Part shown: piece after piece, positions 2,816-31,794 of the stretch
Layout of the letters: the number at the start of each line of letters is the position of its first letter
How positions within the stretch are numbered: the stretch's first letter is position 1
Origin: a virus
Direction: 5' to 3' (one strand)
IMG/VR virus record: IMGVR_UViG_3300025096_000078
Coordinates: 1 to 31,794 of that record
DNA length: 31,794 nt
Notes under the pieces: generated by a model
What the model was told of the DNA's origin: nothing
Seen by the model: only the letters and a program-made list of their open reading frames with translations
Databases searched by the model: none
Position numbers and translations under genes: made by a program

Positions 2816-2818
2816 GAA

Positions 2819-5800
2819 TTAGTTCAGGGTTGCGACGTACTCAGATGGACTTACTGTATCGTTACTACCTTTGACTTGCTCAACTGGTATCTGTTCACCT
2901 GTTTGTAGCATCCTGTCTCTTATGGCATCTCCTTTGTTTTGCTGATGTCTTAGTTCTAATACTTCTAATATATATGGATTGTTTTTGTCGTTAAGGAACA
3001 TAAAACGTCCTTGTTTTCTGTATTGCTCAAAGACAGGTTGAAGTAATGCCATTCTTGGAGAAACTTCATTGCTCTTGCCACGGGCCTCTGGCAATTGTCT
3101 TTGATAGGTAGGTGTTGCCATGATTCTATATAGCTCTTCATATAGCTTCCTTCCTGTTCTTGGATCTGGTGTATCTGCTATATATCTCAGATATTGTTCA
3201 TAGGCAGGAGCACTAAGGGTAACTCCCTTTTGTAAATCGGTTGGAGAAGGAGCTATAAATCTTGAACCAAAGCCATGAATCCTCATTAATTCGTTCATTA
3301 CATAATCTTTTTTACCTATATCTTTTCTACCTTTTCTTCCAACAACATCAGGATGAGCACCTACTAATGGGATAGCAGAGATCGGTGCAGGTAAGGCTGT
3401 TAATACAAATGCACTTGTTAACTGAGCAAGCATAGGCTCATCTTCTGTTGGTAAATAATTATCACCTAAAAATCCTGGGTTAAGAAGAGGATCGAAAGTA
3501 ATCCAATTTCTACGTGCTGGTAAATCTTTAGACCATAAGGGAGTAATTGCTTGAATCTCTTGTAATACATGATTAAAGATATTTACGAATGGATTATCTG
3601 AACCAGTCTCTGTATAAGGAATATCTCTTGCTGTTGTGTCTTTATCTCCAGGCCATTGGAAGACAGTATCACTATCTTGATCTACTACCTTTCTTCTTCC
3701 TCCTCTAGGATTAGTTCTCTTCTCTTCATCTAATGCTTGAGTTACTGTTCTTAAATGAGCAGATCTATATACAAAACTTGCAGCTAGTTTTGCAAGATAT
3801 CGTTGAACTTTATTGATTGAACCTGGTTGAGTTGGAAGTTTTCCTGCACCTCCTGTTGGTGCTATAGACATAATCACATCTACAAAATCAGCAATTCCTT
3901 CGTAATAGCTAGTTCTAAATCTTCCAGTAAAAGCTTGTGCTGCAATTTGCACTGGTAATAGTTGCGCAAGTGTTTCTCTTTGTTCTTTTGTTAGAGATGC
4001 TGCTATTTGCCAGTAGTCAGCAAAACCTCTAATGATTGATGAGGCTGGTTCATATGCTCTATAAGATGTCCATTCACCCCATGTAGCATTCCCTAGTCCA
4101 TCTATTCCAGTCTTAAATCTGATTGAGTCAGGTTGATTTTGTGTTCTCCATTTTGCATAGGCATCAGGGTTGGTTGGACCAGAACCTGTTATTTGAATAT
4201 TGTCATTAGCGTAGAGACTACTCATAGCCATCATGATTGTTGCCCCCGTAGCAACTTCTCCTTTCCAACGTTTAGCAAAGTAACTTGTCTCGTCTAGGAA
4301 ATCTCTATAGGCAGTATCAACATGTCTATTAGAGAAGGGCAACATTCTTATTGCTTGTTTTGTCATATCACCAGGGCTTCTATTAAATGGTTGAATCATT
4401 GTCGCAATCCATCCATATCTCTTTCTCTGAATCTCTGTCCATTTCTCAGGAAGGAAAGACCATGCAGCAGTAGAAGAAGGAGTTGGAGTGCCTGGTTCGT
4501 TTAATGGAGTTTCGTGAGTATTGCCATGACGATCTACATAACCTTCTTTGTATTTTTTAGCAAAGGCATTGATTTCTCCTTCATCTTTTATTCCTTTGTT
4601 TCTAGCCAAGTCTTGACCAAAATCAATTGTTCTTGCTGGCATTAAAGCCCGAACATCATCTGTAAAGGTCAACATCCGACCCATCTTCAAAGCAGCAGGA
4701 TGGGTGTTAATTGCATCATTAATCGTGACACCTCTTACTACAGCATCATGAGTAAAGAATTGAACTTTAGATTTTGCCCATTCTTCTGCAAAGTACCAAG
4801 CTTCTCCTCCTGACAATCCTTCTCTAGCTGCTTGTTCTAATCCTTCTTCTACACCTATGGCATAAAGGAAGCTGTTACCAGCTAAGGCTTTCTGTGTTGT
4901 TTCAATAGCTCCTTGCAGTCTTAAGTCAATTGTTGCAGCTTTCCACAAGAAATTCTTAAGTGCTATTTGAGCAGGACTTTTCCCTATTTCTTTTGCAAGA
5001 GGAAATTCATTTAAGTTATAGGCAGGATTTGTTTCATCAAGAATCATCCTTTCAGACATTCCTTCCGCTTCTTGAACAGCTCTATATGTATTGAGATCCC
5101 ATGCAGAAGAACGACGGTATGGATCATAAAGAGTATGTCCTTCCATAAAGGCTTTTTTCCCAAGTCTTAAAGCACCCATTGATTGCATCCACATTTGCTT
5201 GTACCAGACATAAGCAATTGGTAGTTTTTGTTGGAAAGCCTGTGCATCAAAAGGAATCCAACTACCTTCTGGTCTTGTAAGAGTTGCGTCGAGAACGTAG
5301 TAAGCAGGTTCTAATACCATCCTTGCGGTTGGAACACCTGTTTGAATTGCATAAGTTAATGGTGAGCTAAGAAGATTACTGATTCTGTAAGTAGAAAGAG
5401 TTCTTCCCCAGAGTTCTACGGTGTCTTGAATCCCTGCTGGCTCTGCACCTTTGGCTGCGGTTTCAATCTGATTAACACTTGGATTTGGTCCTCTCATCAA
5501 CTTATCAATGGTTCCTATTCCTACTCCTGGATTAGTAGCTTCGTCTGAAACGACTCTTGCAAATTCAGTCAGCATTGCTTTGGACTGAGGAGTCCATTCT
5601 TTAGTCTTGATCGCAGTTTGTAATTCGACTGGGAATACAGCTTTAAGAGAATCACCTTCTGGTAAGGCATTGTCTGCTGTTTCTATTTCTTTGATTAAAC
5701 CTTCTGCATCTATTTTGAAGCCAGGGACATCTCCTTCTGTGAATTTGACATTAGCAAGATCAGGGATCTGAGCTTGTGTACTTGCAAGTAATTGACCAGC

Positions 5801-8800
5801 GCCTCGTGTGATTGTTTGATAGAGACGGAAGGTTCTTACTCCGACAAGGACAGAATGCTGTAGCTCGGAGGCCGCTTCTTCCCAATTGATTCGACCATCC
5901 TTCATTGCGTTAAGGAGTTTCATTGCCTTAACACCAGCAACTTCACTTGTCTTAGTAACAAGAACTCTTAACTTAAGTAAGTTCTTGACGTTATCAACAT
6001 TATTAGAAAGATTAGCAGCGAGAACTTTATTTAGCCCTTCAATTTCTGCTGCATTAATTCCATACTTCTCTGCATTTAAAACGATTTGATCCATCAATGC
6101 TTGAGAATCTACAGACGGCATTCCTGTCGTTTGAATTCGATCAAGCCTCTTGCCTACGGCGTCCCATAGAAGGAGCATGTCTGTAGTTGCAGGGCCGTAA
6201 CTCCTTCTGCCGGAAGGGCTTTCGACTGCAATAACATCATTAAATAGTTCGTCTAAATCTATTTCGCCTCTACTAAACTTCTCTAAATCTTCGAGATAAG
6301 TATCAGTAACTTCAGCTGATTCTACTTCGTACTTAGATGTTCCTGGTACATCAGCTTGTTCTGCTTTTGTCTCTTCTAAGATTTCATCCCATTCTTCAAC
6401 AGTTTTTCCTTGGCCAGCATCTTGTGTTGCGTCTACAACTTCATCAAACCCCTCTTCAAAAGTAGAAGCTGGAACTTCAAGCTCAACACCTCTTGTATTT
6501 GGTCCAGCTTTGGCCGAACCAGTGGCACTTTCTATTCCAGTTTTAATTTGTTCGTGAATCTCATCACCTAAAGCACGAACATCTTCGATGTTATGTCCTT
6601 GTTCTTCTAAAGCATCTATAAGTTTCTGAGCTGATTTAGGGAGTTTTGCTTTTCCTTTTCTCAAGATCCATGCAACTCTATCTAAATCAGATTCGAAAGT
6701 AATCTTTGCTTGTCCGTAATTAGTTGGGTAGTTACCTGGAGGGAAGTTGAAATCTCCAGCAAAACGTTTACCACCACCTAGTTGATAGTTCTTACCTGCA
6801 CCTGGCCCTGTCCAAAAATCATATGGATCCCAGTCGTCTGGATCTCCTTTGAAATACCAAGGTGTTTCATAATCAGCTCCAGGTTCAATTCCATCTGCTT
6901 TCTTCATTTTATTTATTATCTGTTGCATTTTGTCAGCAATACTTCCTTTCTTGAAATCACTACCTTCCAGCCTTCTTATAATATTGTTTATAGCGTCAAC
7001 TTTTGCAGCTAAGAAATCTGATCTGGCTTTAGCTAAACGTTCTCCTGTATCTGCTTTTCCTCCTCCTCCGATAGCATCTAGCAATGCTTGTTGTGCACCA
7101 ACATCTGCTATAAAAGAATCGAAGGTTACATCTGGAAAATCTGGGTGAGAGTAATAGAACCTGAGAGCAGCTTCTGGAATACCGCTGTAATCAGGTGCTA
7201 TTTGATAATCAAGTTTTGAATCTAAGAACCCAACGCCTATTTCTGTCTGTTCTTTCTTTCCAAGGAAATCTAAAGCGTCAAATTGTTCTTTGCTTAATTT
7301 GCGATATCCTTCATCTCTAGTTCTCCAGATACCACCTGGTTGAACCATTTGCCTCCAAGGACTTTCAATAAATGATTCTGCGTTAGCAAGACCAATACCA
7401 GGGCCAGTATATCCACCAACTTGAGAAGGCCTAAGAGTTTTATAACTAGGAATGCCATAATATCCCCGTACATCACCAAGGCCAACATCACCAAGAATGT
7501 CATCTAGTGAGCCTTTCTGACTATCAAAATCACTTAGCTCTGGATTTTTCATCTGATCTTTTTCATATCTCGCTTCCCACCGTGTATCCATGAGCTCGTC
7601 TGCTTTTAGTTTTCCTTGAGCGAATTCCTCATAAATTGAACGCATTGATCTGAAGCCTTTACCCTTCGGATCTGTAAGGAAGTTATAGAATTTTTCTATT
7701 ACATCAAAGATATGATCTGCTGCTTCAGTAAAGGCTCTAATGAAAGGATCATCTGTCCATTCTTTTAGTGCCATTGCTACTGTTACTGATTTGCCTTCAC
7801 GCCTAGCCCATCCATATTCTTGAGCTATGTAACCTTGAATCTCAAGATAAGAAAGATTATCAACAGGAATACCTTCATCACGTAATCTAGAAATGATTCT
7901 TGATTTAGTAAAATTAGCTCTATATCTTGCAAATTTAGTATCTAATATTTTTATTTGATCGTCAGAAAGAATAAGTTGCTGAACTCTATGCCATAGTTCG
8001 TGATATGCAGTTTTTCCTAGTTGTTCTAGGGAACCTTCTGCTATACCATAAATATCAAGTACATCATCAAAGAAGTCATAACTTCCAAGTACAGGCTGTT
8101 CTCCACCTCCAAGTTTATAACCCTCAGCTGCTTCTGTTATTCCATAATCAGGATGTAATTTTAATCGTTCTAAAATATCCTTACCACCTATTTTTCTTAC
8201 TATATCTAAAACTAATTCAATCCTTTTTCTTGTCCAAGCATTGACTTGTTCGTTAGTAAATTCATCACCTGTGAAAGGAGAATCTGGAACACCATGTCTA
8301 TTTAATCTTCCAAACTTACGTTCTAATAATTGTTTCCTTAGAACTTCTACCTCTTCTCCTGAGATTGGTCTTCCATTTTTAGTGACACGTCTGACGATTT
8401 GATCGGCTTCTTCTATCTGTTCACGTGAATATGTTCTTACCCCTGGGTCAGGTGCAGGCCTTTCAATATTGTCGATCCTTGCTTGCTTGACTTCTCTTTG
8501 TCTTATTTGTGAGTTGTATTCACGTAGTTGTGCATCGTAAGAATCTCGTGCTGCATTCTGGGCAGGCGTACCTTCTCCTTTGAATCCTTCTGGGGGAGTA
8601 GGAAGTTCTGGTTCTGGTCCAAGATCTTTTATCTCTTGCCTAATGGATTCAGTTCTTGGATTAGTAGAAGGTGGTTCTTCTGGAATAAATTCATTTCTTT
8701 GTCCAATAACTCCTTCACGTCGTTTTGTAATCTCCTGATTTTTCTTTGACCATTTGGCATGATCTTTTGCAGCTTGTGTCTTCTTCTTCTTCCCGTCTAC

Positions 8801-10009
8801 AACTTCAAATGATCTACCTGGAGCTGGTTTAGGAGGTTCTGGCCCTAGCTTTTCTATTTCAAAATCAACTTCCTTAAGTTCATTGTCTATTTGTTTAACG
8901 TTGAAAGCTGTCTCAGCATCAGGCATTCCTTCTGGAACATTTTCTAGCTGACGAACTATCGGATTACGACTAACTTTCTTACTTAATCCATCAAGCTTTT
9001 CTCTAATCGCTTGAGCTTGAGGACTATCCTCCCCAAATTTTCTGACGTTTTCAAAGAGTTGTTGTGCATATCCTTGAGCTTTAGTGACTTGAGTTATTAA
9101 GTTTGCACTATCTTTTGGTCTTGCTTTATAACCCTGCCAAGCTGACCCTATACCAAAATCTATAGCCCATCCTTCAACCATATTTTTCAAACGACCTTCA
9201 ACTGCTGTGTCATCAGGATCACTAGCTAATTGATTAACGAGAGGAATATGTTGAACAAATCCAAACCATTCACTATTTGCTGCTAGGTCATATAACCTTC
9301 CATCCCATTGGTTGAATGCAGCGAAGTCAACAGCCAAGCCTTTAGGGTTAGCAGTTGCATTCCATGCGCCACGAGCAAGAGGTACTGCTAAATGTTTGCC
9401 GAATGGTGTGGAAGCAAAGGCTGTAGCTTTTTGTCCTACTGCTGTTCCTTTAATAGCTTGTTTTGTTTTAAGTGCCGTTGCTCCAATTTTTGTTCCAAGC
9501 TTCCCAACTTTGGTTCCTTGAGTGGCTCCCTTTAATGCCCAGTTGGCTCCACGCAAAGCTCTACTAAGGAGCATCCATTCAGCAACAAACTGAGTAATAC
9601 CTGTTGCAAAACTTTCAACGCCTTGGAAATTAGCTTCACTGTTATCAGCTTCAACAGGTTTCCAATCACCAAGACCAATGATTCCCTTGTCTTGTTCTTC
9701 GAAAGTAGTACCTGTTCCTTCTGGAGCAATTCCAAAATATTCACCTAAATCACGTATTGTGTCGCTTCCTTCCTGTAAGGTATTAACAGCTGCGTTATAA
9801 GGTATCCGTCCTGCAGTTTTTATAGTTCCTGTTAATAGATCATCATCTTCATCAGCTTTCAATCCTTCGGTTATAGGTGACAAGTCACTTAACGTTTCAC
9901 CAATAGAACGTGTAGAAACAGTTGGTACTACTGGTTTTTTCTGATCCTCTTCAAGGTACTCATACCTGGATTCACCAGTTTTCTCATCAGTAACAAGAGT
10001 TAGTCCCAT
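2819..10009 (-). CDS. Giant internal virion/ejection protein in the T7 gp16 position, with a metallopeptidase-like motif
   Basis: At 2396 residues this is the largest gene in the window and much longer than T7 gp16 (1318). By position, between the gp15-like and fibre genes, it is the gp16-type protein that is ejected into the host with the DNA. A motif HELWH lies at residues 670-674 with candidate third metal ligands E723 and E731, as in gluzincin-type zinc peptidases. I see no obvious lytic transglycosylase domain of the kind at the N terminus of T7 gp16. Residues about 380-560 are rich in E, K, R and P and probably extended or coiled. Residues about 1095-1165 contain TFESDLDRVAWILRKGK, resembling a module of large phage polyvalent proteins. 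A hydrophobic stretch near the C terminus (FVLTALPAPISAIPLVG) might contact membrane. The start is ATG. The structural role is confident; the peptidase activity is inference. Confidence 0.8.
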   Translation of the reverse strand: MGLTLVTDEKTGESRYEYLEEDQKKPVVPTVSTRSIGETLSDLSPITEGLKADEDDDLLTGTIKTAGRIPYNAAVNTLQEGSDTIRDLGEYFGIAPEGTGTTFEEQDKGIIGLGDWKPVEADNSEANFQGVESFATGITQFVAEWMLLSRALRGANWALKGATQGTKVGKLGTKIGATALKTKQAIKGTAVGQKATAFASTPFGKHLAVPLARGAWNATANPKGLAVDFAAFNQWDGRLYDLAANSEWFGFVQHIPLVNQLASDPDDTAVEGRLKNMVEGWAIDFGIGSAWQGYKARPKDSANLITQVTKAQGYAQQLFENVRKFGEDSPQAQAIREKLDGLSKKVSRNPIVRQLENVPEGMPDAETAFNVKQIDNELKEVDFEIEKLGPEPPKPAPGRSFEVVDGKKKKTQAAKDHAKWSKKNQEITKRREGVIGQRNEFIPEEPPSTNPRTESIRQEIKDLGPEPELPTPPEGFKGEGTPAQNAARDSYDAQLREYNSQIRQREVKQARIDNIERPAPDPGVRTYSREQIEEADQIVRRVTKNGRPISGEEVEVLRKQLLERKFGRLNRHGVPDSPFTGDEFTNEQVNAWTRKRIELVLDIVRKIGGKDILERLKLHPDYGITEAAEGYKLGGGEQPVLGSYDFFDDVLDIYGIAEGSLEQLGKTAYHELWHRVQQLILSDDQIKILDTKFARYRANFTKSRIISRLRDEGIPVDNLSYLEIQGYIAQEYGWARREGKSVTVAMALKEWTDDPFIRAFTEAADHIFDVIEKFYNFLTDPKGKGFRSMRSIYEEFAQGKLKADELMDTRWEARYEKDQMKNPELSDFDSQKGSLDDILGDVGLGDVRGYYGIPSYKTLRPSQVGGYTGPGIGLANAESFIESPWRQMVQPGGIWRTRDEGYRKLSKEQFDALDFLGKKEQTEIGVGFLDSKLDYQIAPDYSGIPEAALRFYYSHPDFPDVTFDSFIADVGAQQALLDAIGGGGKADTGERLAKARSDFLAAKVDAINNIIRRLEGSDFKKGSIADKMQQIINKMKKADGIEPGADYETPWYFKGDPDDWDPYDFWTGPGAGKNYQLGGGKRFAGDFNFPPGNYPTNYGQAKITFESDLDRVAWILRKGKAKLPKSAQKLIDALEEQGHNIEDVRALGDEIHEQIKTGIESATGSAKAGPNTRGVELEVPASTFEEGFDEVVDATQDAGQGKTVEEWDEILEETKAEQADVPGTSKYEVESAEVTDTYLEDLEKFSRGEIDLDELFNDVIAVESPSGRRSYGPATTDMLLLWDAVGKRLDRIQTTGMPSVDSQALMDQIVLNAEKYGINAAEIEGLNKVLAANLSNNVDNVKNLLKLRVLVTKTSEVAGVKAMKLLNAMKDGRINWEEAASELQHSVLVGVRTFRLYQTITRGAGQLLASTQAQIPDLANVKFTEGDVPGFKIDAEGLIKEIETADNALPEGDSLKAVFPVELQTAIKTKEWTPQSKAMLTEFARVVSDEATNPGVGIGTIDKLMRGPNPSVNQIETAAKGAEPAGIQDTVELWGRTLSTYRISNLLSSPLTYAIQTGVPTARMVLEPAYYVLDATLTRPEGSWIPFDAQAFQQKLPIAYVWYKQMWMQSMGALRLGKKAFMEGHTLYDPYRRSSAWDLNTYRAVQEAEGMSERMILDETNPAYNLNEFPLAKEIGKSPAQIALKNFLWKAATIDLRLQGAIETTQKALAGNSFLYAIGVEEGLEQAAREGLSGGEAWYFAEEWAKSKVQFFTHDAVVRGVTINDAINTHPAALKMGRMLTFTDDVRALMPARTIDFGQDLARNKGIKDEGEINAFAKKYKEGYVDRHGNTHETPLNEPGTPTPSSTAAWSFLPEKWTEIQRKRYGWIATMIQPFNRSPGDMTKQAIRMLPFSNRHVDTAYRDFLDETSYFAKRWKGEVATGATIMMAMSSLYANDNIQITGSGPTNPDAYAKWRTQNQPDSIRFKTGIDGLGNATWGEWTSYRAYEPASSIIRGFADYWQIAASLTKEQRETLAQLLPVQIAAQAFTGRFRTSYYEGIADFVDVIMSIAPTGGAGKLPTQPGSINKVQRYLAKLAASFVYRSAHLRTVTQALDEEKRTNPRGGRRKVVDQDSDTVFQWPGDKDTTARDIPYTETGSDNPFVNIFNHVLQEIQAITPLWSKDLPARRNWITFDPLLNPGFLGDNYLPTEDEPMLAQLTSAFVLTALPAPISAIPLVGAHPDVVGRKGRKDIGKKDYVMNELMRIHGFGSRFIAPSPTDLQKGVTLSAPAYEQYLRYIADTPDPRTGRKLYEELYRIMATPTYQRQLPEARGKSNEVSPRMALLQPVFEQYRKQGRFMFLNDKNNPYILEVLELRHQQNKGDAIRDRMLQTGEQIPVEQVKGSNDTVSPSEYVATLN

Positions 10010-21015: not shown

Positions 21016-21342
21016 TCAGGGGATTTGTAAGCCAGCGCCACCACCACCACCAATACCTATATCTGTCCGAAGTCTCCTTCTTCCATAACCTTTACTCCTT
21101 CTTTGAGGGGCAGCGGGCGTTGGTGTTATTTCCAATGATGATCCTGCTACTTCAGCAGTAGGACTGGGAGGTGGAGGAGGTGGAGAGTTTTGAATTGCTT
21201 TCTGTTCCTCAAAGCGAGCACGACTTTCCGCCTGTTGTATTTCAAACTGACGTTTTTGTTCAGCCATTTGCTCTCGTTGGAGAGCTAACTGAGCACTGTT
21301 ATCAGGAGCAGGGCTTGATCTCCTTCCACCTCCACCACACAT
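21016..21342 (-). CDS. T7 gp7.3-like small virion/tail assembly protein
   Basis: This 108-residue protein opens MCGGGGRRS, has a Gln/Glu-rich helix (about residues 18-52), a run of six prolines, and ends RRRLRTDIGIGGGGGAGLQIP. A C terminus of the form basic residues then Gly-rich then (L/I)(N/Q)IP is shared by gp7.3-type podovirus proteins (T7 gp7.3 ends GGGINI) that sit just before the portal gene and are needed for infectious tails. The position here, directly upstream of the portal, is the same. The assignment is based on position and the C-terminal signature; the catalytic-free, low-complexity sequence allows no more. Confidence 0.65.
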   Translation of the reverse strand: MCGGGGRRSSPAPDNSAQLALQREQMAEQKRQFEIQQAESRARFEEQKAIQNSPPPPPPSPTAEVAGSSLEITPTPAAPQRRSKGYGRRRLRTDIGIGGGGGAGLQIP

Positions 21343-21344
21343 AG

Positions 21345-21530
21345 CTAAGAATTAAGATTGTTTTGGTCAGTGTAAACGGAATGCAGCATACGTACCACAC
21401 TGCGGCATCCTACATAGTGCCATATTTCTCTATCTTCTTGATCAGTAGAGGGACATTGTTCAGGATAAATCTCATCTAACTTACGAATAAGTGCCTCATC
21501 AATAGGAGGGAAAAGCTCATCGTCATTCAT
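21345..21530 (-). CDS. Small conserved-type hypothetical protein between exonuclease and gp7.3-like gene
   Basis: This 61-residue acidic protein begins MNDDELFPPIDEALIRKLDE and includes a PEQCPSTDQEDREIWHYVGCRS segment. The frame is open back to a TTG at 21,545, but ATG 21,530 overlaps the exonuclease stop as ATGA, the coupling pattern used throughout this block, so I chose it. No known domain is recognised. It could be a replication accessory or an early morphogenesis protein. Confidence 0.7.
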   Translation of the reverse strand: MNDDELFPPIDEALIRKLDEIYPEQCPSTDQEDREIWHYVGCRSVVRMLHSVYTDQNNLNS

Positions 21531-22264
21531 AGTACTGGCTCCCAAAGTTGTACTTCACCAGAGGTGTGGTTATATTCTCCATCACGGAGTATGCGTGTTA
21601 AACGTGCAGTCATAATTGCATCCGCATAACTCTTCTTCTTTTTTTTGTAGGCCTGTAATACTTTCTCCCACATATCTTCAAGTGTTTGTGAATCACCAAG
21701 AATTTTCTCTGCGGTAACTGGGCCTACTCCTATTAGTCCTTCAATATTATCTGTTTTGTCTCCACTTAATGTCTGGATCATCCAGTGTCTATCAGCTTTC
21801 TTTCTCGTTATGAGTTCGAGATCATCTGATTGCAGCAGTGTGCAAGGTACACCTCTCATGTCTTTATCAGGCGACACGATGATTGGATCTTTGTACTTCC
21901 CACCTGTTGCGAGTAACCCCATCACATCATCACCTTCCAATCCATCGAAACTAATGGAGTGAAAGTCTTTAGCAATCTGTTCTCGTATATCACTAAGGCC
22001 AAGGGGTCTACGTTTCCCTGATCTATTAGCTTTGTACTCTTGATAGATCCCATGCCTGAAGGTGGGATAGTCAGAGAAGCACATGATGACTGGGCCACTA
22101 GCCTCACCTATCAGTTGATACTGAGCTACTCGATCTTCAATTAGTTGAATAGCATCACGTCTATCTAGGTGAAGGGTGTGGATGTTTTCATCCCATCTAG
22201 TGTCCTGTTCACATGCACAGCATGAGGAATAGATCAGCCAGTCGGCATCAATTAGGAGTGTCAT
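21527..22264 (-). CDS. 5'-3' exonuclease, T7 gp6 / FEN-type nuclease
   Basis: This 245-residue protein carries the metal-binding acidic residues of the flap/5' nuclease family: D6 and D8 (LLIDADWL), D65, E110/D112/D113 (DGLEGDDVMG), D133/D135 (VSPDKDM) and D169/D172 (LSGDKTDN). A helix-three-turn-helix (GLIGVGPVTAEKIL) follows at about residues 177-189. In T7 this enzyme removes RNA primers and degrades host DNA. The start ATG overlaps the primase-helicase stop as TAATG. In T7 the DNA polymerase gene lies between these two genes; here no base is available for one. Confidence 0.92.
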   Translation of the reverse strand: MTLLIDADWLIYSSCCACEQDTRWDENIHTLHLDRRDAIQLIEDRVAQYQLIGEASGPVIMCFSDYPTFRHGIYQEYKANRSGKRRPLGLSDIREQIAKDFHSISFDGLEGDDVMGLLATGGKYKDPIIVSPDKDMRGVPCTLLQSDDLELITRKKADRHWMIQTLSGDKTDNIEGLIGVGPVTAEKILGDSQTLEDMWEKVLQAYKKKKKSYADAIMTARLTRILRDGEYNHTSGEVQLWEPVL

Positions 22265-23877
22265 TAGAAGTAAGAAGACATTGGAATTGTGAGTCGACCT
22301 GTGTCCTGGTCGTAAAGGAGTTTGTCAACAGGGCCAGTAAAACCAGCGAACCTATTTTTCAAACAACGCAGCTGTAGTTCACTACGTTCTGCTGCATCTC
22401 CTTGTTGATTGCGTTCACAAGAGATGACTGCATCTGATAATTGGGCTATTGAATGAGAACCCCTGAGATGGCCAAGCGAGACTTGAGCACCCTCCTCATG
22501 GCCTCGCCCTTCGGGGCGCTTGAGGTGGCTAACAAGGAAAAGACCAACACCCGTAGATTCAACTACTTGTCGAAGCTTGGTGCACGTAACATCAAGCGCA
22601 CGTCTCTCGTCACAGTCAGTGAGACCAGAGACAACTATGGTGAGGTGGTCAACAAAGACAACATCTACCCCCTCAACATTGGCAAGGTATTGGATCTGTT
22701 CTACAAGGCGATCAGGATCCATCGACCCAAAATGGTCATAAAGGAAGAGACGCTGCGTTGCGCAAAGACGATCAAAGGCTGATCGAGTTGTCTCTTCATC
22801 TGCAAGTGCAGGGTCAAGGTGGATAGGTAGACCTAGTTCCACTCCAACTATCCCTTGCAATGTGCGTTGGATACTTTCTTCGAGTGCGATGTACCCAACC
22901 TTCAGTCCTTGAATGAGGAAGTAGTGAGCCAGCTCCCTGCATAGTGAACTCTTCCCTGTCCCGCTACCAGCTGTGATGGTAATCATCTCGCCTTTACGGA
23001 ATCCTTGTAGATATTTATCTAGTTGAGGCCAGGGGTATTTACATATAGCTGTAGCACCAGGCTTGATTAGTTCATCCCATAGATCCGCTGCATTAATGAT
23101 GCCGTCGGGTCTGACTGGCGTGGCTTTCCATAGCAGATCGTGCAACAACTCTCCTTCGCCTGCGAGGAGCATTTCATTAGCGTCCTTTCTTGGTAGTCGG
23201 CAGATAGCTGCCTTGCCAGCAGGTAATACTTCAACTGCCTTCTCGGCAGCTGCCATTCCAGGTTCATCTGAGTCGAAGCAAAGGACAATCCGAATGAAGT
23301 TGGATAGCCATTTGAGATTTGCAGCTATGTATTTGCTAGCAGATTGAGCACCGTTTGGTAGTGAAACTACAGGAAACTTGTTGCCTTGAACTTGAGAGAC
23401 CGACATGCAATCAACCTCCCCTTCAGTAATAACAACGAATAGATTTTGTGTGCCGTGCTGTCTCCAAAGATGTTGACCCCAGAGTTGCATGTCAGAGCAA
23501 TCACCAATCCAACTAAACCTTTTGTCCTTAGTTCTTATGTGTTGAGCACAAGGTTTACCCAACTGATCTCTGAAGGTAGAGACCTGAACAGGTTGGCCGT
23601 GGCGTTCAGCTGTTCCATACCCATAGAGCTTGGTCGTTTCTTCTGTTAGTGCTCTCTTGTTGAGAGCCTTCGAGATGATGCGACATGGATCTATTAGGTC
23701 TGGCTTTTTCATAGGCAGTACAGGCATGGGTTTCTTCTCTTCCTTGGTGGGTTGATACTGATAGTCGCAGCCAAAGCAAGTGGCATGGCCGTCATCGAAC
23801 CAAGCCAAGTTGTCTTTGCTTTTGCATTCAGGGCAGGGCCCGTGCTTAACGAACTTGCTTTTGCTTTTCTCTTTCAT
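22264..23877 (-). CDS. Primase-helicase (T7 gp4-like)
   Basis: This 537-residue protein (T7 gp4 is 566) has all parts in order. The N-terminal zinc-binding module has C15, C18, C34 and C37. The TOPRIM domain has E152 in VITEGEVDCM and the downstream acidic CFDSDEPG. The RecA-type helicase has Walker A GSGTGKS at residues 304-310, a Walker B-like VFVDHLTIVV and FLVSHLKRP. It should unwind the fork and lay down primers. The start ATG has GGGAG five bases upstream. It follows a 36-codon small ORF that overlaps its start. Primase and helicase both look intact, so the replisome is missing only its polymerase in this window. Confidence 0.95.
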   Translation of the reverse strand: MKEKSKSKFVKHGPCPECKSKDNLAWFDDGHATCFGCDYQYQPTKEEKKPMPVLPMKKPDLIDPCRIISKALNKRALTEETTKLYGYGTAERHGQPVQVSTFRDQLGKPCAQHIRTKDKRFSWIGDCSDMQLWGQHLWRQHGTQNLFVVITEGEVDCMSVSQVQGNKFPVVSLPNGAQSASKYIAANLKWLSNFIRIVLCFDSDEPGMAAAEKAVEVLPAGKAAICRLPRKDANEMLLAGEGELLHDLLWKATPVRPDGIINAADLWDELIKPGATAICKYPWPQLDKYLQGFRKGEMITITAGSGTGKSSLCRELAHYFLIQGLKVGYIALEESIQRTLQGIVGVELGLPIHLDPALADEETTRSAFDRLCATQRLFLYDHFGSMDPDRLVEQIQYLANVEGVDVVFVDHLTIVVSGLTDCDERRALDVTCTKLRQVVESTGVGLFLVSHLKRPEGRGHEEGAQVSLGHLRGSHSIAQLSDAVISCERNQQGDAAERSELQLRCLKNRFAGFTGPVDKLLYDQDTGRLTIPMSSYF

Positions 23878-23956
23878 GATTCTCCCAGTGGTGGATCAGG
23901 AGTTTTAATTCCTCGATTCTTTTTTTTGCATATTGAATACGATCAGATGCGTTCAT
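23846..23956 (-). CDS. Small helical protein (36 aa), upstream of primase-helicase
   Basis: A 36-codon frame starts at ATG 23,956 behind GGAGAAAAG, a good ribosome-binding site, and encodes a charged amphipathic helix (about residues 6-34, RIQYAKKRIEELKLLIHHWE). It overlaps the upstream gene end by 14 nt and the primase-helicase start by 32 nt, filling what would otherwise be a 65-nt gap. No family is recognised. Its small size makes it uncertain, but the ribosome-binding site and tiling favour a real gene. Confidence 0.55.
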   Translation of the reverse strand: MNASDRIQYAKKRIEELKLLIHHWENHEREKQKQVR

Positions 23957-24185
23957 CTTTTCTCCAAGGCAGTGCGTCTTGACTGTTAATCACCAAGATC
24001 TTGCAATCAGGGAAAGCTTCTTTAACTCTTGATGCAGCGACTGATGGATTCGGAGCACGTTGAATAACATACTGTCCTTTTCCATCGGGATCTTTAACCT
24101 TGATGGTGTAATCCTTTTGGCCTGCTGTGATTGAGTTGTACACAGGGAAATCCTCCTGAGAGATTGAGCGTTGTCGTTTAGTCAT
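23943..24185 (-). CDS. Small hypothetical protein in the replication block (80 aa)
   Basis: The 80-residue product begins MTKRQRSISQEDFPVYN and contains IKVKDPDGKGQYVIQRAPNP followed by a helix and a short strand (CKILVINSQD). This suggests a small alpha/beta protein. The frame extends back to a TTG at 24,200, but ATG 24,185 overlaps the preceding stop as ATGA. No family recognised. It lies between the zinc-ribbon gene and the 36-residue ORF, in the stretch where T7 carries its gp3.5 lysozyme; it has no lysozyme features. Confidence 0.7.
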   Translation of the reverse strand: MTKRQRSISQEDFPVYNSITAGQKDYTIKVKDPDGKGQYVIQRAPNPSVAASRVKEAFPDCKILVINSQDALPWRKDERI

Positions 24186-24439
24186 CGTGGTGTCATCCAA
24201 GTATCAAGCTGATCAATCAACCAACCGTTGTACTTAGGGATGGACTGCTTGCATCCATGACAAGAACACTTTGACCATGACAAGTGGTATGTCCTTTGAA
24301 CATGTCCACATTCAGGACACTTGATGTTCTTACCATTGCCACCAGCACGATCTTTCTTTTGGATCTGTGCATAGTCATCGATGAGAGTTTGCTCCCCATC
24401 TCTGACTGAGATGTGTTTGCTATGTGTTGTTGGTGTCAT
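24182..24439 (-). CDS. Zinc-ribbon-like small protein
   Basis: The 85-residue protein has CPEC (C41, C44) and CSCHGC (C58, C60, C63) separated by 13 residues, a plausible four-cysteine zinc ribbon after a helical N-terminal half. Such ribbons often bind nucleic acid or a polymerase, but no specific family is recognised. ATG 24,439 overlaps the endonuclease stop as ATGA; an ATG three codons upstream is also possible. It lies in the replication block between endonuclease I and the primase-helicase, so a role in DNA or RNA metabolism is likely by context only. Confidence 0.75.
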   Translation of the reverse strand: MTPTTHSKHISVRDGEQTLIDDYAQIQKKDRAGGNGKNIKCPECGHVQRTYHLSWSKCSCHGCKQSIPKYNGWLIDQLDTWMTPR

Positions 24440-24879
24440 GAGTACCATGAGTTGGGGACAAATCTGCTACTCCATTGGAAGCCATGTCTTGTAGCCCATT
24501 GGCCATAAGTAATTGACTTCTTAGCGCGGCTGATCTTTTCATTGCCGTTTAAAAAACACAGCCGGATATCTAAATCAGGATGTTGTCTCTTTACAGCTAA
24601 CATCTTGCGTCTATCTTCTGGTCTGAAGAAACCCTTAGCCTCAACGATCACTCCATTAGGGAGGATGAAGTCAGGTTTGTACTTGGCTTCAATGATGTAG
24701 TCAAGGGTTAATCCTTCATACTTAAAGGGAACGCGGCGTTGATTAAGGCTGGCCGCAATACCAGCCTCAAACTTACTGCGGTATTTAAAAGTCCCCTGAC
24801 TCTTCGGTGTTGGCACTGCTTTCAGGTGTCGTTGTTTCCGACGTACCTTGGAAGTTCCCTTCTGCTGCTTCGAAGCCAT
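24436..24879 (-). CDS. Endonuclease I, Holliday-junction resolvase (T7 gp3-like)
   Basis: The 147-residue protein (T7 gp3 is 149) contains the catalytic set of T7 endonuclease I. E38 lies in RSKFEAG, D70 in YKPDFILPNG, and E80 and K82 in VIVEAKG; the spacing D-x9-E-x-K matches T7 D55, E65 and K67. It resolves branched DNA and helps degrade host DNA. The first 25 residues are very basic. They overlap the last 95 nt of the SSB gene out of frame. The start is the only ATG before the core. Confidence 0.93.
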   Translation of the reverse strand: MASKQQKGTSKVRRKQRHLKAVPTPKSQGTFKYRSKFEAGIAASLNQRRVPFKYEGLTLDYIIEAKYKPDFILPNGVIVEAKGFFRPEDRRKMLAVKRQHPDLDIRLCFLNGNEKISRAKKSITYGQWATRHGFQWSSRFVPNSWYS

Positions 24880-25429
24880 AGCTAGTTGCGGTCTTTGAAT
24901 ACTCCTTCAGATCAATGATCTGTGCGGCTAAAGGTTGAACTTTGATACCAACTCCTGTTGATGGGTGGCTATAAGGAGAAGCTTCGAATGAGATACGACC
25001 AATAGAGCCAGGCCCTATCTTGTCTACCTTCTGCTTCATGTCTTCTGACAGTGGCTTACCCATTGCATCGAAGAGTGCAGGTGGTGTATTAGTCCAGGTG
25101 CTGCCATCTTTTCTGACACCTGATACCTTTCTCTTCATCTTGATATAGAAGACAGCTTCACCTTCTATGTCGTCGTAACCAAAGGAAGTAGGGGCTGACT
25201 TCCAATTCTTTTTATTGGGTTCAGCTTCCTTGCATTGCTTTTGGAAACGAGTAAGTAATCCACTGAGCTGTTCTTCCATCTCGCTAGCTTGGTCAGCTGC
25301 GATGAGTGCTATCACTTTCCATACTGCTTGTTCGTACTTGGTGTCAGGTGTGACAAGCCATGCGTACTGAAATTTACAAGGTGGTGTGGTGAGTTTGAGT
25401 CTTTCGAATTGTGGTACTGATGAAGTCAT
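24785..25429 (-). CDS. Single-stranded DNA-binding protein (T7 gp2.5-like)
   Basis: The 214-residue protein (T7 gp2.5 is 232) lies between the RNA polymerase and endonuclease genes as in T7. It has an OB-fold-type beta-rich body with PPCKFQYAWLVTPD near residues 16-30 and ends with an acidic tail closing in an aromatic residue (NTEESGDF). In T7 the acidic tail and its terminal Phe bind the DNA polymerase and primase-helicase. ATG 25,429 overlaps the RNA polymerase stop as ATGA. The tail is kept although no phage polymerase gene is visible. Confidence 0.88.
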   Translation of the reverse strand: MTSSVPQFERLKLTTPPCKFQYAWLVTPDTKYEQAVWKVIALIAADQASEMEEQLSGLLTRFQKQCKEAEPNKKNWKSAPTSFGYDDIEGEAVFYIKMKRKVSGVRKDGSTWTNTPPALFDAMGKPLSEDMKQKVDKIGPGSIGRISFEASPYSHPSTGVGIKVQPLAAQIIDLKEYSKTATSYGFEAAEGNFQGTSETTTPESSANTEESGDF

Positions 25430-27783
25430 GTGATGAAGTAGTTAGAAGTTTGTACGGACGTGAGATCTAGTTCACCAAGCTCAGGCTTGGGTGGTAAATC
25501 ATCTGCCCTTTCAATCTGTTGAGTGAGCTGTGTTGTGACTGCTGTGAACCAATCATCTGAATACATATCAGAGAATGATTGCCTTACTGCATCCCTTAGC
25601 TTGCTCATTTCTGAGGGAGTAGTGGCAAAGCAGTCATGAACTCCGCCGATATTCTGAACGCCATTCATCATGGCTCGAATAGTGGCGAAGGACATATGAC
25701 TTGAGTCAAATGAGTGGACAACGTTAGGACTGAGAGCATTAGCCATTCGAGTTGAATCAAGAGAGTCTTGATCGATGTTCGTTCTGATATCCATGTGAAC
25801 ATCAGATAGATACTTCAATCGAATGCGTGTTTGCTTGGTGTCCTTGTACTCCTGGTGAACTAACAATCCTGATGGTGTTGTCCACTCAAGAGGGATGTTG
25901 TCCTTACCAGCAAGGCGACCAAGTTTTCTGAACCATTCCATTGCCTTAACAGCTGGGCCAATCAAAGCTGTTGTCTCTTTATGCAAGAGCTGCGCCATGA
26001 AGTGCATGGTGCTCATGGATCCACGTTGGGTAGTCCATGTCTTGCCTGAGAACATATCCTTTGATCTCTTTTGTGCCCAGTCGTAGCAGTAGTAGTAGAA
26101 GGCAGTGGATGTAGCTGAGTAAGGGCTAGTCATCACGCATGGTTTAGCGAGTGACCTGTCTGGCTCAAGCATCAACCACTTCCTTGCTCTTGGGTCATCA
26201 CTCTTTCTTAATTTCTCAAGGACACGAGTCATTACTTGTGAGTAAATGTCTTGTGGTGTGTCACTTGAGATGAGATTGACTGATCTACCCATGCCCTCTG
26301 ATCTAAGGAGAGCGGCATAGTGTTGGATACCTGAGCACGTGCAGTCCAACATGATGGGAAGGGTGCATTGATAGCCCCATCCTTGATGTTTGAACTGTCG
26401 GTACTCATGACAGAAAGCAAGGAAAGCCCAAGGCTTATCGGCTCTCATCCAGAACTCAGCGTTTAACCACGGGTCGTTGCCAGCTCCCATGATTAGCTGT
26501 TCTCTTTGATGTACCCAATCAATCCGAGTCTGCCAATCTGATTTGCCTAGTCCATAGAGGTTGGCTCCATGTACTCGCAACCAATTGACATCCTCTTCTG
26601 TATTGAGGGGAGTGCCGTTAGCAAATAAGAGAAGCGACCTCGACACATCATTCCCTTGCGGGTTGAGATAAGGAGGGCGGTAGTAGTAGCGACCTCTGAA
26701 ATCAAGGGACATAGGGAAATAAAATTCCTCTTCATCCTTGAAGCGACGAGCTACCCATAAGGTCTTGGCTTGACCTATACGTGCACCCTTAGTCTTGTCA
26801 TTCTTCTCATAGATTTGCTTAGCTCTTTTCCTCCACCGATATACACCTGGATCCTCTTCATCTAAATGTTTAGGGAAGGGAGGGACAGGCCATCCCTCTC
26901 TTGGGAAGAGGCAACCAATCTCTAGGTTGAGGTCATACGCATGGTCAACTTGTTCAAGCATCCATGTGTTGATCTTCCATGGGACTGACTGATGAATGTT
27001 GGCTGCCTTAATGAAGGGCTCATCACCCTTACTATTCTTGCCAACTAGTTCATCATTACTCTTCATCAATTTGAGAGGGAGCATGTGATAGCCACCGTTA
27101 GGCCAAGGTCGAGGCTCGATGACCGTCGGTAGATAGTTCGGTGTCATCAACTCTTGCTGTGCTTTGACGTCGTTGATCCATGCCATGCACTGATCGGTTG
27201 GTTTAACCACACGACGGGCAGGTTTATAACCGTGATCCATAACGATCTCGATTAAGCCTGTCTCTTTAGCAACTAGTTCAATAAGAAAGACACCTGATGC
27301 CATCTTCTCCTTGACCTGCCAGTTATCTGTCCACTGCATGTGCCTAATGGCTGCCATTTGATGAGCTCTTTTACTGCGACCACGTTTGAACTTGATGAGT
27401 TCATCCTTGGTTGCACGATCAAGCATGGTTTCTATCCATAACTTGTCGGCTACATCCATTGCGACTGAGTGCAATGTTGGGCATGCACTAAGACTGTCGA
27501 TGACAGTACGCAGTGCGCATGCTGCTACTTGTTGTGGTGGTAGGTGAGTGATAGGTGAGAGGAGAGCAAATGATTTACCTGCTACTCCCTTCTCTATCTT
27601 TTTTCTGATAGCCCGAAGATGGATGACTATCTGATCTATGCCATGTGCAGTGAGAGCTTCACCCCACTTTGATAAGGACTCCATCTGTCCTTGCTTGCGT
27701 CGGTTGGAAAGTAATCTCACTCGGTCTGAACCAAGCGTGAGCATCTCTCTTTCCAAGGCAAGTTGATCGTCGAGTGTCTTCAC
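25426..27783 (-). CDS. Single-subunit RNA polymerase (T7 gp1-like)
   Basis: The 785-residue protein (T7 is 883) has the catalytic set of T7-type polymerases. D480 lies in MLDCTCSGIQHYAALL. R543, K547 and Y555 lie in RSLAKPCVMTSPY, matching T7 R627, K631 and Y639. D717 lies in VHDCFATTP. The ALSPNVVHSFDSSHM segment is also conserved. It should transcribe the middle and late genes from phage promoters. The start is GTG at 27,783: no in-frame ATG, GTG or TTG occurs between the upstream stop and this codon. The N terminus (LDDQLALEREML) lines up some way into the T7 protein, so the N-terminal domain is shorter. Confidence 0.95.
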   Translation of the reverse strand: MKTLDDQLALEREMLTLGSDRVRLLSNRRKQGQMESLSKWGEALTAHGIDQIVIHLRAIRKKIEKGVAGKSFALLSPITHLPPQQVAACALRTVIDSLSACPTLHSVAMDVADKLWIETMLDRATKDELIKFKRGRSKRAHQMAAIRHMQWTDNWQVKEKMASGVFLIELVAKETGLIEIVMDHGYKPARRVVKPTDQCMAWINDVKAQQELMTPNYLPTVIEPRPWPNGGYHMLPLKLMKSNDELVGKNSKGDEPFIKAANIHQSVPWKINTWMLEQVDHAYDLNLEIGCLFPREGWPVPPFPKHLDEEDPGVYRWRKRAKQIYEKNDKTKGARIGQAKTLWVARRFKDEEEFYFPMSLDFRGRYYYRPPYLNPQGNDVSRSLLLFANGTPLNTEEDVNWLRVHGANLYGLGKSDWQTRIDWVHQREQLIMGAGNDPWLNAEFWMRADKPWAFLAFCHEYRQFKHQGWGYQCTLPIMLDCTCSGIQHYAALLRSEGMGRSVNLISSDTPQDIYSQVMTRVLEKLRKSDDPRARKWLMLEPDRSLAKPCVMTSPYSATSTAFYYYCYDWAQKRSKDMFSGKTWTTQRGSMSTMHFMAQLLHKETTALIGPAVKAMEWFRKLGRLAGKDNIPLEWTTPSGLLVHQEYKDTKQTRIRLKYLSDVHMDIRTNIDQDSLDSTRMANALSPNVVHSFDSSHMSFATIRAMMNGVQNIGGVHDCFATTPSEMSKLRDAVRQSFSDMYSDDWFTAVTTQLTQQIERADDLPPKPELGELDLTSVQTSNYFIT

Positions 27784-27822: not shown

Positions 27823-28038
27823 TTACGTGAGATCAGAGGCCCAAAAGGCAAGCTGTTCGCAGTAGTTAGCTTCGACCCACTCAGTTAGAGCACGAGTGCC
27901 TATCTCTGAGACGGGTAAGCCTTGCGCTTTGGCTAGGTTCTCTAGTCTGCGCTCAACAGATGGAGGTATAGAGATTTGCATCCTGTTTTTAACAGGTGCT
28001 TTGGTCTCGCATCTTTCTGTTGTTGTCTGTTCAGTCAT
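27823..28038 (-). CDS. Ribbon-helix-helix DNA-binding protein
   Basis: The 71-residue product has a ribbon-helix-helix pattern: a beta strand RMQISIP (about residues 19-25), helix SVERRLENLAKAQG (27-40), turn LPVSEIG, and helix TRALTEWVEA (48-57). This is typical of CopG/Arc-type dimeric repressors. It sits 39 nt upstream of the RNA polymerase start in the same direction and may regulate early transcription. The frame is open to a TTG at 28,068, but ATG 28,038 overlaps the previous stop and precedes the fold cleanly. The target site is not known. Confidence 0.75.
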   Translation of the reverse strand: MTEQTTTERCETKAPVKNRMQISIPPSVERRLENLAKAQGLPVSEIGTRALTEWVEANYCEQLAFWASDLT

Positions 28039-28333
28039 GGAAATAAAACTTGCGTAAGGTGGCTTCAATTAAGAGATTAGGAACTGTTGGTTCAGGGAAC
28101 TCCTGTTTCAACAGTGCTTTGAAGCGTCGTTCCTTTATCTCTTCCCATCTGGCAGCTGCATCAGTTGGTGGTGAGTCAACCATCATCTGCCAGTGTGTCG
28201 ATTCATCTGGGATGTGATCCCATCGAGCCGACATAGACCAATTACGCATTCGATAGAGCACATGCTTGTCATTGTTGGCATGCTTTTCTGTTGGTTTTGA
28301 TTCGGTTAAAGGAATCCAAGGATGGTCTGACAT
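28031..28333 (-). CDS. Early hypothetical protein (DUF551-like)
   Basis: The 100-residue protein opens HPWIPLTESKPTE and contains VLYRMRNWSMSARWD and STHWQMMVDSPP. This W-I-P ... V-L ... THW ... PP pattern resembles the DUF551 family of small phage proteins of unknown function (recollection, not a search). The C-terminal half is helical and charged. The start is ATG, with no clear ribosome-binding site. Its stop overlaps the ribbon-helix-helix gene start. Confidence 0.7.
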   Translation of the reverse strand: MSDHPWIPLTESKPTEKHANNDKHVLYRMRNWSMSARWDHIPDESTHWQMMVDSPPTDAAARWEEIKERRFKALLKQEFPEPTVPNLLIEATLRKFYFHD

Positions 28334-28429: not shown

Positions 28430-28654
28430 TTAAGACACGCCATTGATTGCGCTTGACCCATTCGATTCCTTGGCCCATAACTCCATGAGATGTATAGCCC
28501 AGTCGCAACACAATAAAGATTGCTGAGTGGTGGGCTCTGTTCCGTAGCGATCCTGATGCCAGCTCCAATAGGCCTCGAAGAGTTCTCGATCACGCTGGTA
28601 ACGGCTCGGTATGAACTCTTGAACGGGTTGCATGGTGGTGGTGGTGTCGCTCAT
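28430..28654 (-). CDS. Early hypothetical protein (74 aa)
   Basis: The product has 74 residues: a Thr-rich start, then an aromatic helical stretch (RDRELFEAYWSWHQDRYG) and a CCDWAIHLMELWAKES helix. No family recognised. ATG 28,654 follows a short perfect hairpin (CACACT/AGTGTG, 28,663-28,682) and the duplicated terminator/promoter-like element further upstream, so it is the first gene of a small transcription unit leading to the RNA polymerase. A second in-frame ATG lies at codon 8. Confidence 0.65.
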   Translation of the reverse strand: MSDTTTTMQPVQEFIPSRYQRDRELFEAYWSWHQDRYGTEPTTQQSLLCCDWAIHLMELWAKESNGSSAINGVS

Positions 28655-30519: not shown

Positions 30520-30756
30520 ATGGCGAAGGATTCAACGACTGAGGTATTAAGTGAGCTGCATGCTGGCTTAGCTCATCTCTTTATGGAGAGATTGAGGGAA
30601 GGGACGTTAGGTACGGCGGAATTGAATATCTTGAGGCAGTTTCTGAAAGATAATCAGATCAGTTCACAACCAGCAGAGGGAAGTGAGTTTGGAGAATTAG
30701 CGAAGGCGTTGCCAGATATAGAGAATGTGGTTGCGTTTAAGAAGAAAAGGGCTTGA
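30520..30756 (+). CDS. terS: Terminase small subunit (T7 gp18-like)
   Basis: The 78-residue protein (T7 gp18 is 89) begins AKDSTTEVLSELHAGLAHLF and continues with a helical segment LGTAELNILRQFLKDNQIS, the pattern of T7-type small terminases, which bind the concatemer and load the large subunit. It is followed by the membrane microprotein and large terminase with overlapping stop/start codons, the T7 gene 18 - 18.5/18.7 - 19 arrangement. The operon runs opposite to all other genes in the window. GGGAG lies about 13 nt before the ATG, which is far for a ribosome-binding site. Confidence 0.85.
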   Translation: MAKDSTTEVLSELHAGLAHLFMERLREGTLGTAELNILRQFLKDNQISSQPAEGSEFGELAKALPDIENVVAFKKKRA

Positions 30757-30863
30757 TGATGACTAAAGCAGACCTTTGGAAAGAGGACATCGTTGTAATA
30801 ACGATTGTTCTATCTTTAGTTTTCTATGATTTTATTAGGAAAGAGTGGAGAGAATTTAGGTGA
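30756..30863 (+). CDS. Membrane microprotein (35 aa) between terminase genes
   Basis: A 35-codon frame opens at ATG 30,756 (overlapping the small terminase stop as ATGA) with a second ATG next to it. The sequence MMTKADLWKEDIVVITIVLS then LVFYDFIRKEWREFR contains one hydrophobic span (about residues 11-26) flanked by charged ends. In T7, lysis-related gp18.5 (an Rz-type spanin) sits at this place. This protein is far shorter and shows no Rz features, so it could be a tiny holin-like or spanin-accessory protein. Coupling to both neighbours supports reality. Confidence 0.6.
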   Translation: MMTKADLWKEDIVVITIVLSLVFYDFIRKEWREFR

Positions 30864-31794
30864 AGAGTCAGTGGCAGAAGTTACCTGAACCGTATAGCGA
30901 AGACTTCAGGTATTTCTTGGTCATTGTTTGGAGGCATCTTCAACTGCCAGATCCGACACCGATTCAGTTGGATATTGGTGAATATATGCAGGATGGTCCT
31001 AAGAGAAGGATCATCGAAGCTTTTCGAGGAGTAGGGAAGAGTTGGATGGCAGCAGCTTATGTACTTTGGCTGCTAAGGAATGACCCACAGAAGAAAATAA
31101 TGGTGGTGTCGGCCTCAAAAACTAGGGCGGATGACTTTGCCCAGTTCTGTTTGAGGTTAATTAGAGAGATGAAGCTGCTTCAATGCTTAGATCCTGATCG
31201 GGATGAGCAAAGAAGTGCATCAAATAGATTTGATGTGAGACCGTCGATCCCAGATCAAAGCCCTTCTGTGAAATCAGTGGGTGTTTTTGGACAGTTAACG
31301 GGTTCGAGGGCAGATTTAATCCTTGCTGATGACGTAGAAGTCCCAAATACTGCGTGGACAATAGGAATGAGAGAGAAATTATTACACTCAGTCGGAGAAT
31401 TTAATGCAATTTTGAAGCCTGGTGGGGAGATTATGTTCCTCGGAACGCCCCAAACAGAGGAAAGTATCTATAACAAGCTTCGGATGAGGAGTTATGAGTG
31501 TCGTATTTGGCCTGCTAGGTATCCAGCGAAACCAGAAAAGTATGGAGAAGCGCTTGCGCCAGTGATTCAAACAGAATGTATAGAGCAGAAAGGGCGTCCA
31601 ACAGATCCAGGTCGTTTCTCCGATTTGGATTTATTGGAAAGAGAAGCAAGTTATGGTCGTTCACAGTTCACTTTGCAGTTCCAACTTGATACCACTCTGT
31701 CGGATTTAGAGAGATTCCCCTTAAGACTTACCGATTTAGTTGTAATGGAACTAAAAGATCATGCACCGCAAAAGGTCGTATGGTCTTCTGGAGC
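30860..31794 (+). CDS. terL: Terminase large subunit (T7 gp19-like), 3' end beyond window
   Basis: A frame opens at GTG 30,860, overlapping the microprotein stop, with GGAGAG upstream, and stays open to the window edge (about 311 codons). It carries the packaging ATPase motifs: Walker A FRGVGKS at residues 55-61 and Walker B DLILADDVE at 152-160, followed by FLGTPQTEESIYNKL (coupling motif region). The start KSQWQKLPEPYSEDFRYFLVI resembles T7 gp19. T7 gp19 is 586 residues, so the nuclease domain lies outside. GTG start is chosen because no ATG occurs before residue 43. Confidence 0.92.
   Translation, partial: MKSQWQKLPEPYSEDFRYFLVIVWRHLQLPDPTPIQLDIGEYMQDGPKRRIIEAFRGVGKSWMAAAYVLWLLRNDPQKKIMVVSASKTRADDFAQFCLRLIREMKLLQCLDPDRDEQRSASNRFDVRPSIPDQSPSVKSVGVFGQLTGSRADLILADDVEVPNTAWTIGMREKLLHSVGEFNAILKPGGEIMFLGTPQTEESIYNKLRMRSYECRIWPARYPAKPEKYGEALAPVIQTECIEQKGRPTDPGRFSDLDLLEREASYGRSQFTLQFQLDTTLSDLERFPLRLTDLVVMELKDHAPQKVVWSSG

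Follow-up and report, generated by a model that had tools for sequence, protein, structure and literature searches.

The window, the whole stretch of DNA analyzed here, is a piece of a T7-like virus whose host is probably a marine cyanobacterium; the virus record is linear and 31,794 b long. It encodes a single-subunit RNA polymerase (RNAP) and has the T7-type order of virion and replication genes, which together mark the T7-like phages (Autographiviridae). All main genes except terminase lie on the minus strand, running from the early ORFs through RNAP, single-stranded DNA-binding protein (SSB), endonuclease I, primase-helicase (gp4) and exonuclease (gp6) to the virion genes. Enterobacteria phage T7 has the same order from RNAP to the virion genes but carries gene 5 between gp4 and gp6.

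A replication module with a closed junction

The replication module, on the minus strand throughout, starts with a P-SCSP1-type, T7-type RNAP of 785 aa (25426-27783; Pfam RNA_pol, E 2e-83). It is followed by a gp2.5-type SSB of 214 aa whose acidic tail ends in ESGDF (24785-25429; phrog_112, E 3e-17) and a gp3-type endonuclease I of 147 aa (24436-24879; Pfam Phage_endo_I, E 5e-34). Two small ORFs, one of 88 aa with zinc-ribbon-like cysteines and one of 85 aa, separate endonuclease I from gp4 (23943-24448). The T7 gp4-type primase-helicase is intact at 537 aa (22264-23877), with Zn, TOPRIM and helicase parts all present (Pfam DnaB_C, Helic-prim_T7_N and Toprim_2, and a weak Zn_Ribbon_Prim match). 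The T7 gp6-type 5'-3' exonuclease has 245 aa (21527-22264; Pfam 5_3_exonuc_N and 5_3_exonuc). After it comes a 66-aa ORF (21345-21545; phrog_4970), which ORF clustering found in 23 of 23 genomes compared, with or without polymerase.

The original prediction was that DNA polymerase is missing from its expected place between gp4 and gp6, and a direct reading of the sequence bears this out. The two genes (23877-22264 and 22264-21527) overlap by one base within TAATG (22262-22266, minus strand), at the site of the DNA polymerase gene in T7-like phages. The remainder of the module, from RNAP to gp6, looks intact, also as predicted. Both gp4 and gp6 are under purifying selection, with dN/dS of 0.07 and 0.08 between the window and its relative G002. 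Selection maintains the replication module, which is intact but for the polymerase.

The virion module spans 131-21342 on the minus strand and has a P-SCSP1-type backbone: a 108-aa ORF, portal, scaffold, capsid, tube A, nozzle, gp13- to gp16-type proteins and tail fibre, identified by Pfam, with the gp15-type protein assigned by profile comparison. Its gp16-type ORF (2819-10009) is very long at 2,396 aa, is only weakly similar (23-29%) among close relatives, and far exceeds those of pelagiphages in length. The small and truncated large terminase subunits occupy 30520-31794 on the plus strand (Pfam DNA_Packaging_2, PHROG terminase families and the P-SCSP1u map). The strand of the terminase genes is opposite to that of the other main genes in P-SCSP1u as well, and not in P-SCSP2. 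Among the early genes, an 81-aa ORF directly before RNAP (27823-28068) is weakly similar to Arc/CopG ribbon-helix-helix repressors, and a 123-aa ORF at 29687-30058 matches phrog_1987 (E 7e-25).

The nearest isolates are P-SCSP1 and P-SCSP2, Prochlorococcus phages of clade MPP-C, which a 2022 paper described as cyanopodoviruses without a DNA polymerase (Cai et al., PMC9860041). The polymerase-less lineage mentioned with the original prediction exists, and by sequence the window groups with it. Compared with P-SCSP1u, the window lacks about 5.6 kb: roughly half of the large terminase subunit (TerL) and the stretch between it and the tail fibre, a stretch that in P-SCSP1u spans 29890-34646. If the absent part equals that of P-SCSP1u, the 31.8-kb window would belong to a genome of about 37.4 kb; MPP-C genomes measure 37.3-37.9 kb.

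A deletion or assembly artefact at 22264 would also produce a closed junction, and had been named as a way in which the prediction could fail. We scanned IMG/VR with gp4 of the window, P-SCSP2, P-SCSP1u, CRP-125 and Syn5, added references and excluded loci ending before gp6. The junction is closed in 180 polymerase-less loci, comprising the window, isolates and IMG/VR contigs, with gp4-gp6 gaps of -4 to 884 b. In 146 related polymerase-bearing loci the gap is 1569-4238 b, and nothing is intermediate. Beyond the fact that the window is a metagenomic contig, nothing speaks for an artefact, and 179 other loci, including P-SCSP1u, P-SCSP2 and the fosmid phage MedDCM-OCT-S08-C159, have a like junction, making its probability practically negligible. 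The polymerase-less junction of that uncultured fosmid phage (Jalkavirus) was already deposited in GenBank (GU943031). Like the window, it runs directly from gp4 to gp6 with no polymerase between; unlike the window, it is a 10 kb fragment with a P-SCSP2-type RNAP (76% to P-SCSP2).

Absence of a recognisable DNA polymerase gene

Profile searches of the window with family A (PF00476), family C (PF07733) and family B_2 (PF03175) polymerase models gave no match. The family A positive controls Syn5, CRP-125 and HTVC119P all matched PF00476, and the B_2 profile is a weak control. PF00476 has no match in P-SCSP1u or P-SCSP2 either, and PF07733 and PF03175 likewise found nothing in 12 other polymerase-less genomes. 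A tblastn search with seven T7-type polymerases matched all polymerase-bearing references and nothing notable in the polymerase-less loci (one 50-aa piece at E 0.72). Scanning the plausible genes of the window against Pfam and PHROG also yielded no polymerase. In line with the earlier claim, the window encodes no recognisable DNA polymerase.

Could the phage encode a polymerase diverged beyond recognition, as was also proposed by Cai et al. (PMC9860041)? Several small ORFs have no assigned function and leave some room for one. However, all ORFs above 150 aa on the window's coding strands have known T7-type roles. Among ORFs lacking a Pfam name, the two largest were considered as hidden polymerases and rejected, being internal virion proteins by position and profile. 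The gp15-type ORF matches the LUZ100 gp15 family with 96.8% probability and polymerases with 0.4%, and the gp16-type ORF matches polymerases with 0.1%. We consider a diverged phage polymerase highly improbable.

The gene could instead lie in the roughly 5.6 kb absent from the contig, which is a fragment with tail fibre at one end and half of TerL at the other. The equivalent P-SCSP1u genes, however, contain no polymerase domain, their best match being an intein domain model at a chance-level E of 0.19. Full-size relatives such as G006, G021, G024 and G026-G029 carry no family A polymerase at any position, and this explanation is scarcely credible. More broadly, PF00476 is absent from 26 polymerase-less IMG/VR records; these measure 29-56 kb, and several, among them G024 with its exact terminal repeat of 62 b, reach full genome size. 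With controls working and PF00476 negative over these long relatives, we rejected a move of the gene from its usual place.

The original prediction had offered either a host polymerase or a gene outside the window. The former is favored, and with long relatives negative, as well as complete isolate genomes that cover the part absent from the window, a relocated gene is very unlikely. The lineage has no recognisable polymerase gene, and the gap reflects neither decay nor relocation nor assembly loss. T7-like viruses in the sea are widely counted with DNA polymerase as the marker, and Cai et al. argue that this misses an entire abundant lineage (PMC9860041).

Relatives, backbones and the replication cassette

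The best isolate matches of the window are P-SCSP1 phages (gp4 59.5%, RNAP 67%, TerL 83%). For P-SCSP1u the identities are TerL 83%, RNAP 67%, capsid 79% and gp4 59%, and against phages other than P-SCSP1 the window's RNAP reaches 31% at most. The RNAP and TerL trees, a placement suggested with the original prediction, group the window with P-SCSP1u and its close relative G006 (starred), and the corresponding gp4 tree unites all polymerase-less phages in one clade (100/100). On this sequence evidence, the window is an uncultured new member adjoining P-SCSP1 in the already published polymerase-less lineage.

Like the window, the MPP-C isolates P-SCSP1a-u and P-SCSP2 (Prochlorococcus MED4; OM416763-OM416780; PMC9860041) have no DNA polymerase, adjacent or overlapping gp4 and gp6, and a T7-like gene order. 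The window differs in belonging to a separate uncultured group, in its GC content (43% versus 39% and 34%), in the two extra small ORFs before gp4 and in its gp4 tail, PMSSYF. The close relatives G006 and G021 have 59% and 61% GC, compared with 34-39% in Prochlorococcus isolates, and their high GC suggests other hosts. No auxiliary metabolic gene (psbA, hli, mazG, rnr, talC or thyX) appeared among the Pfam matches of the ORFs in the 31.8-kb window. The isolates capture only part of the diversity of the lineage, which has two backbones and 34-61% GC among the genomes compared and whose uncultured groups are closer to one another in gp4 than to P-SCSP1u.

In a gp4 tree of 140 rows, a single switch of polymerase status is seen, with all 45 polymerase-less rows united in a clade (support 100). 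The closest polymerase-bearing rows are pelagiphage-like (support 90, not firm), and the MPP-A/B cyanophages fall elsewhere. The nearest polymerase-bearing relatives may therefore be pelagiphage-like, and not MPP-A/B. These Autographiviridae pelagiphages and roseophages (HTVC119P, HTVC011P, CRP-125 and kin) share 44-47% identity in gp4 and up to 60% in TerL with the window. Unlike the window, they have DNA polymerase between gp4 and gp6, and their module often contains or adjoins a gene for lysozyme or thymidylate synthase. MPP-A and MPP-B phages (Syn5, P60 and P-SSP7) share the T7-like gene order and picocyanobacterial hosts but encode polymerase, ribonucleotide reductase and further metabolic functions.

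As described, the core-gene trees in the literature cover cyanopodoviruses alone (PMC9860041). Once pelagiphages and roseophages are included, the MPP-C clade is only partly confirmed, because P-SCSP2 does not join firmly in the RNAP, TerL or virion trees; a single polymerase-less clade for the virion genes is not rejected (AU p 0.30). In the RNAP tree and the concatenated virion genes, polymerase-less phages split into two well-supported backbones, P-SCSP1-type (including the window) and P-SCSP2-type.

A tree of SSB, endonuclease I, gp4 and gp6 has a different shape. Here the P-SCSP1-type phages are not a clade: P-SCSP1u branches with P-SCSP2-type genomes (support 99), and to these the group of the window is added at a support of 100. 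Forcing the P-SCSP1-type phages together for these four genes is rejected (AU p 0.009). The cassette of P-SCSP1u is not the nearest to that of the window, which is 68.5% identical to G008 in gp4 but 26% in RNAP, 58% in TerL and 49% in capsid. The pattern suggests exchange of the replication cassette between the two virion/RNAP backbones. The main support is one fast-search tree of 16 rows, with groups defined after the RNAP and virion trees. We did not accept exchange from the gp4 tree alone; its basal branches are unresolved, so the claim rests on the concatenated test.

That polymerase is missing from such phages was already published; the gp4 tail loss described below, the cassette exchange and the pelagiphage-side placement go beyond it. 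Searching two papers on the lineage by term returned none of these three.

In one 39,697-b contig (G012), the genes from RNAP to exonuclease lie on the strand opposite to the virion genes. Either this contig is chimeric or its virion module has been inverted with respect to the early one.

The helicase tail and the copying of the genome

In T7, gp5 has two basic patches to which gp4 binds with its acidic C-terminal tails, and a replisome with gp4 deltaC17, which lacks the C-terminal tail, has a processivity of about 5 kb compared with 17 kb (PMC12593628; PMC5997990). The T7 tail is acidic and ends in DF; that of the window, TGRL-TIPMSSYF, has zero acidic residues. The T7 arrangement, in which the phage's own family A polymerase is held by an acidic gp4 tail, is not found in the window. 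Across the census, gp4 ends in Phe in 136 of 145 polymerase-bearing loci but in only 13 of 172 polymerase-less ones. The window's group is among these 13. In the lineage gp4 ends in a short, mostly uncharged, aromatic tail, PMSxYF in the window's group, and P-SCSP2-type tails retain up to about three acidic residues. After TGRL, the medians are 18 residues with 4 acidic in polymerase-bearing loci and 10 residues with 1 acidic in polymerase-less loci. The tail changed in one evolutionary event, so the p value of a Mann-Whitney test on the tails overstates independence. The SSB tail of polymerase-less loci ends in Phe in 145/145 and in DF or EF in 144/145.

The acidic, usually Phe-ended gp4 tail that docks the T7 polymerase has been lost in the lineage, and the acidic SSB tail has been retained. 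Pelagiphages with polymerase also have short gp4 tails without a terminal Phe. Because of this, and because the change is a single event, tail loss may precede polymerase loss or be independent of it.

Loss of the acidic gp4 tail suggests that these phages borrow a host polymerase. We put the probability at about 0.85 that the window covers most of a polymerase-less, T7-like MPP-C cyanopodovirus genome whose synthesis would fall to a host DNA polymerase. Phage primase-helicase, SSB, exonuclease and endonuclease would open the fork, prime it and cut up host DNA, and the host DNA polymerase would elongate behind the phage helicase. It would probably be recruited through the new helicase tail, the SSB tail or both.

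The borrowed enzyme could be host Pol I, one of three options of the discoverers (PMC9860041) and, like T7 gp5, a member of family A. Pol I would work with a separate gp6-type 5' nuclease and a helicase brought by the phage, as gp5 does. Its role is chiefly in repair, however (PMC9860041), and the acidic tail by which T7 gp4 grips a family A enzyme is gone; we regard Pol I as the main alternative, though rather unlikely. We lean slightly toward the replicative Pol III holoenzyme, because SPP1, another phage without polymerase, recruits Pol III (as cited in PMC9860041) and the gp4 tail suited to family A has disappeared.

A more specific version of host borrowing, which we hold only tentatively, is that the gp4 C-terminus was rewired after gene 5 was lost. 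The short aromatic peptide and the SSB tail would dock the host polymerase (Pol III holoenzyme or clamp) to build a hybrid fork of phage helicase and host replicase, with the cassette passed between backbones as a unit. By eye, the gp4, gp6 and SSB tails contain nothing convincing as a clamp-binding motif (QxxLxF-like). Since the change in the helicase tail is conserved, the search for the polymerase that copies these genomes can be framed as a protein-protein interaction amenable to testing.

A polymerase-recruiting gene unique to polymerase-less phages was also sought by ORF clustering and rejected, as no ORF family is in all polymerase-less genomes and absent from all polymerase-bearing ones. 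Families at 21016-21342, 28031-28333 and 28430-28654 are restricted to the P-SCSP1-type backbone; the first two are in 7/7 P-SCSP1-type genomes and 0/13 polymerase-bearing phages. A 68-aa ORF is common to G021 and P-SCSP2-type genomes. P-SCSP2 is stated to have no recognisable endonuclease gene (PMC9860041); at 5209-5628 of its genome (OM416780) lies an unannotated 139-aa ORF that is 54% identical to endonuclease I of the window.
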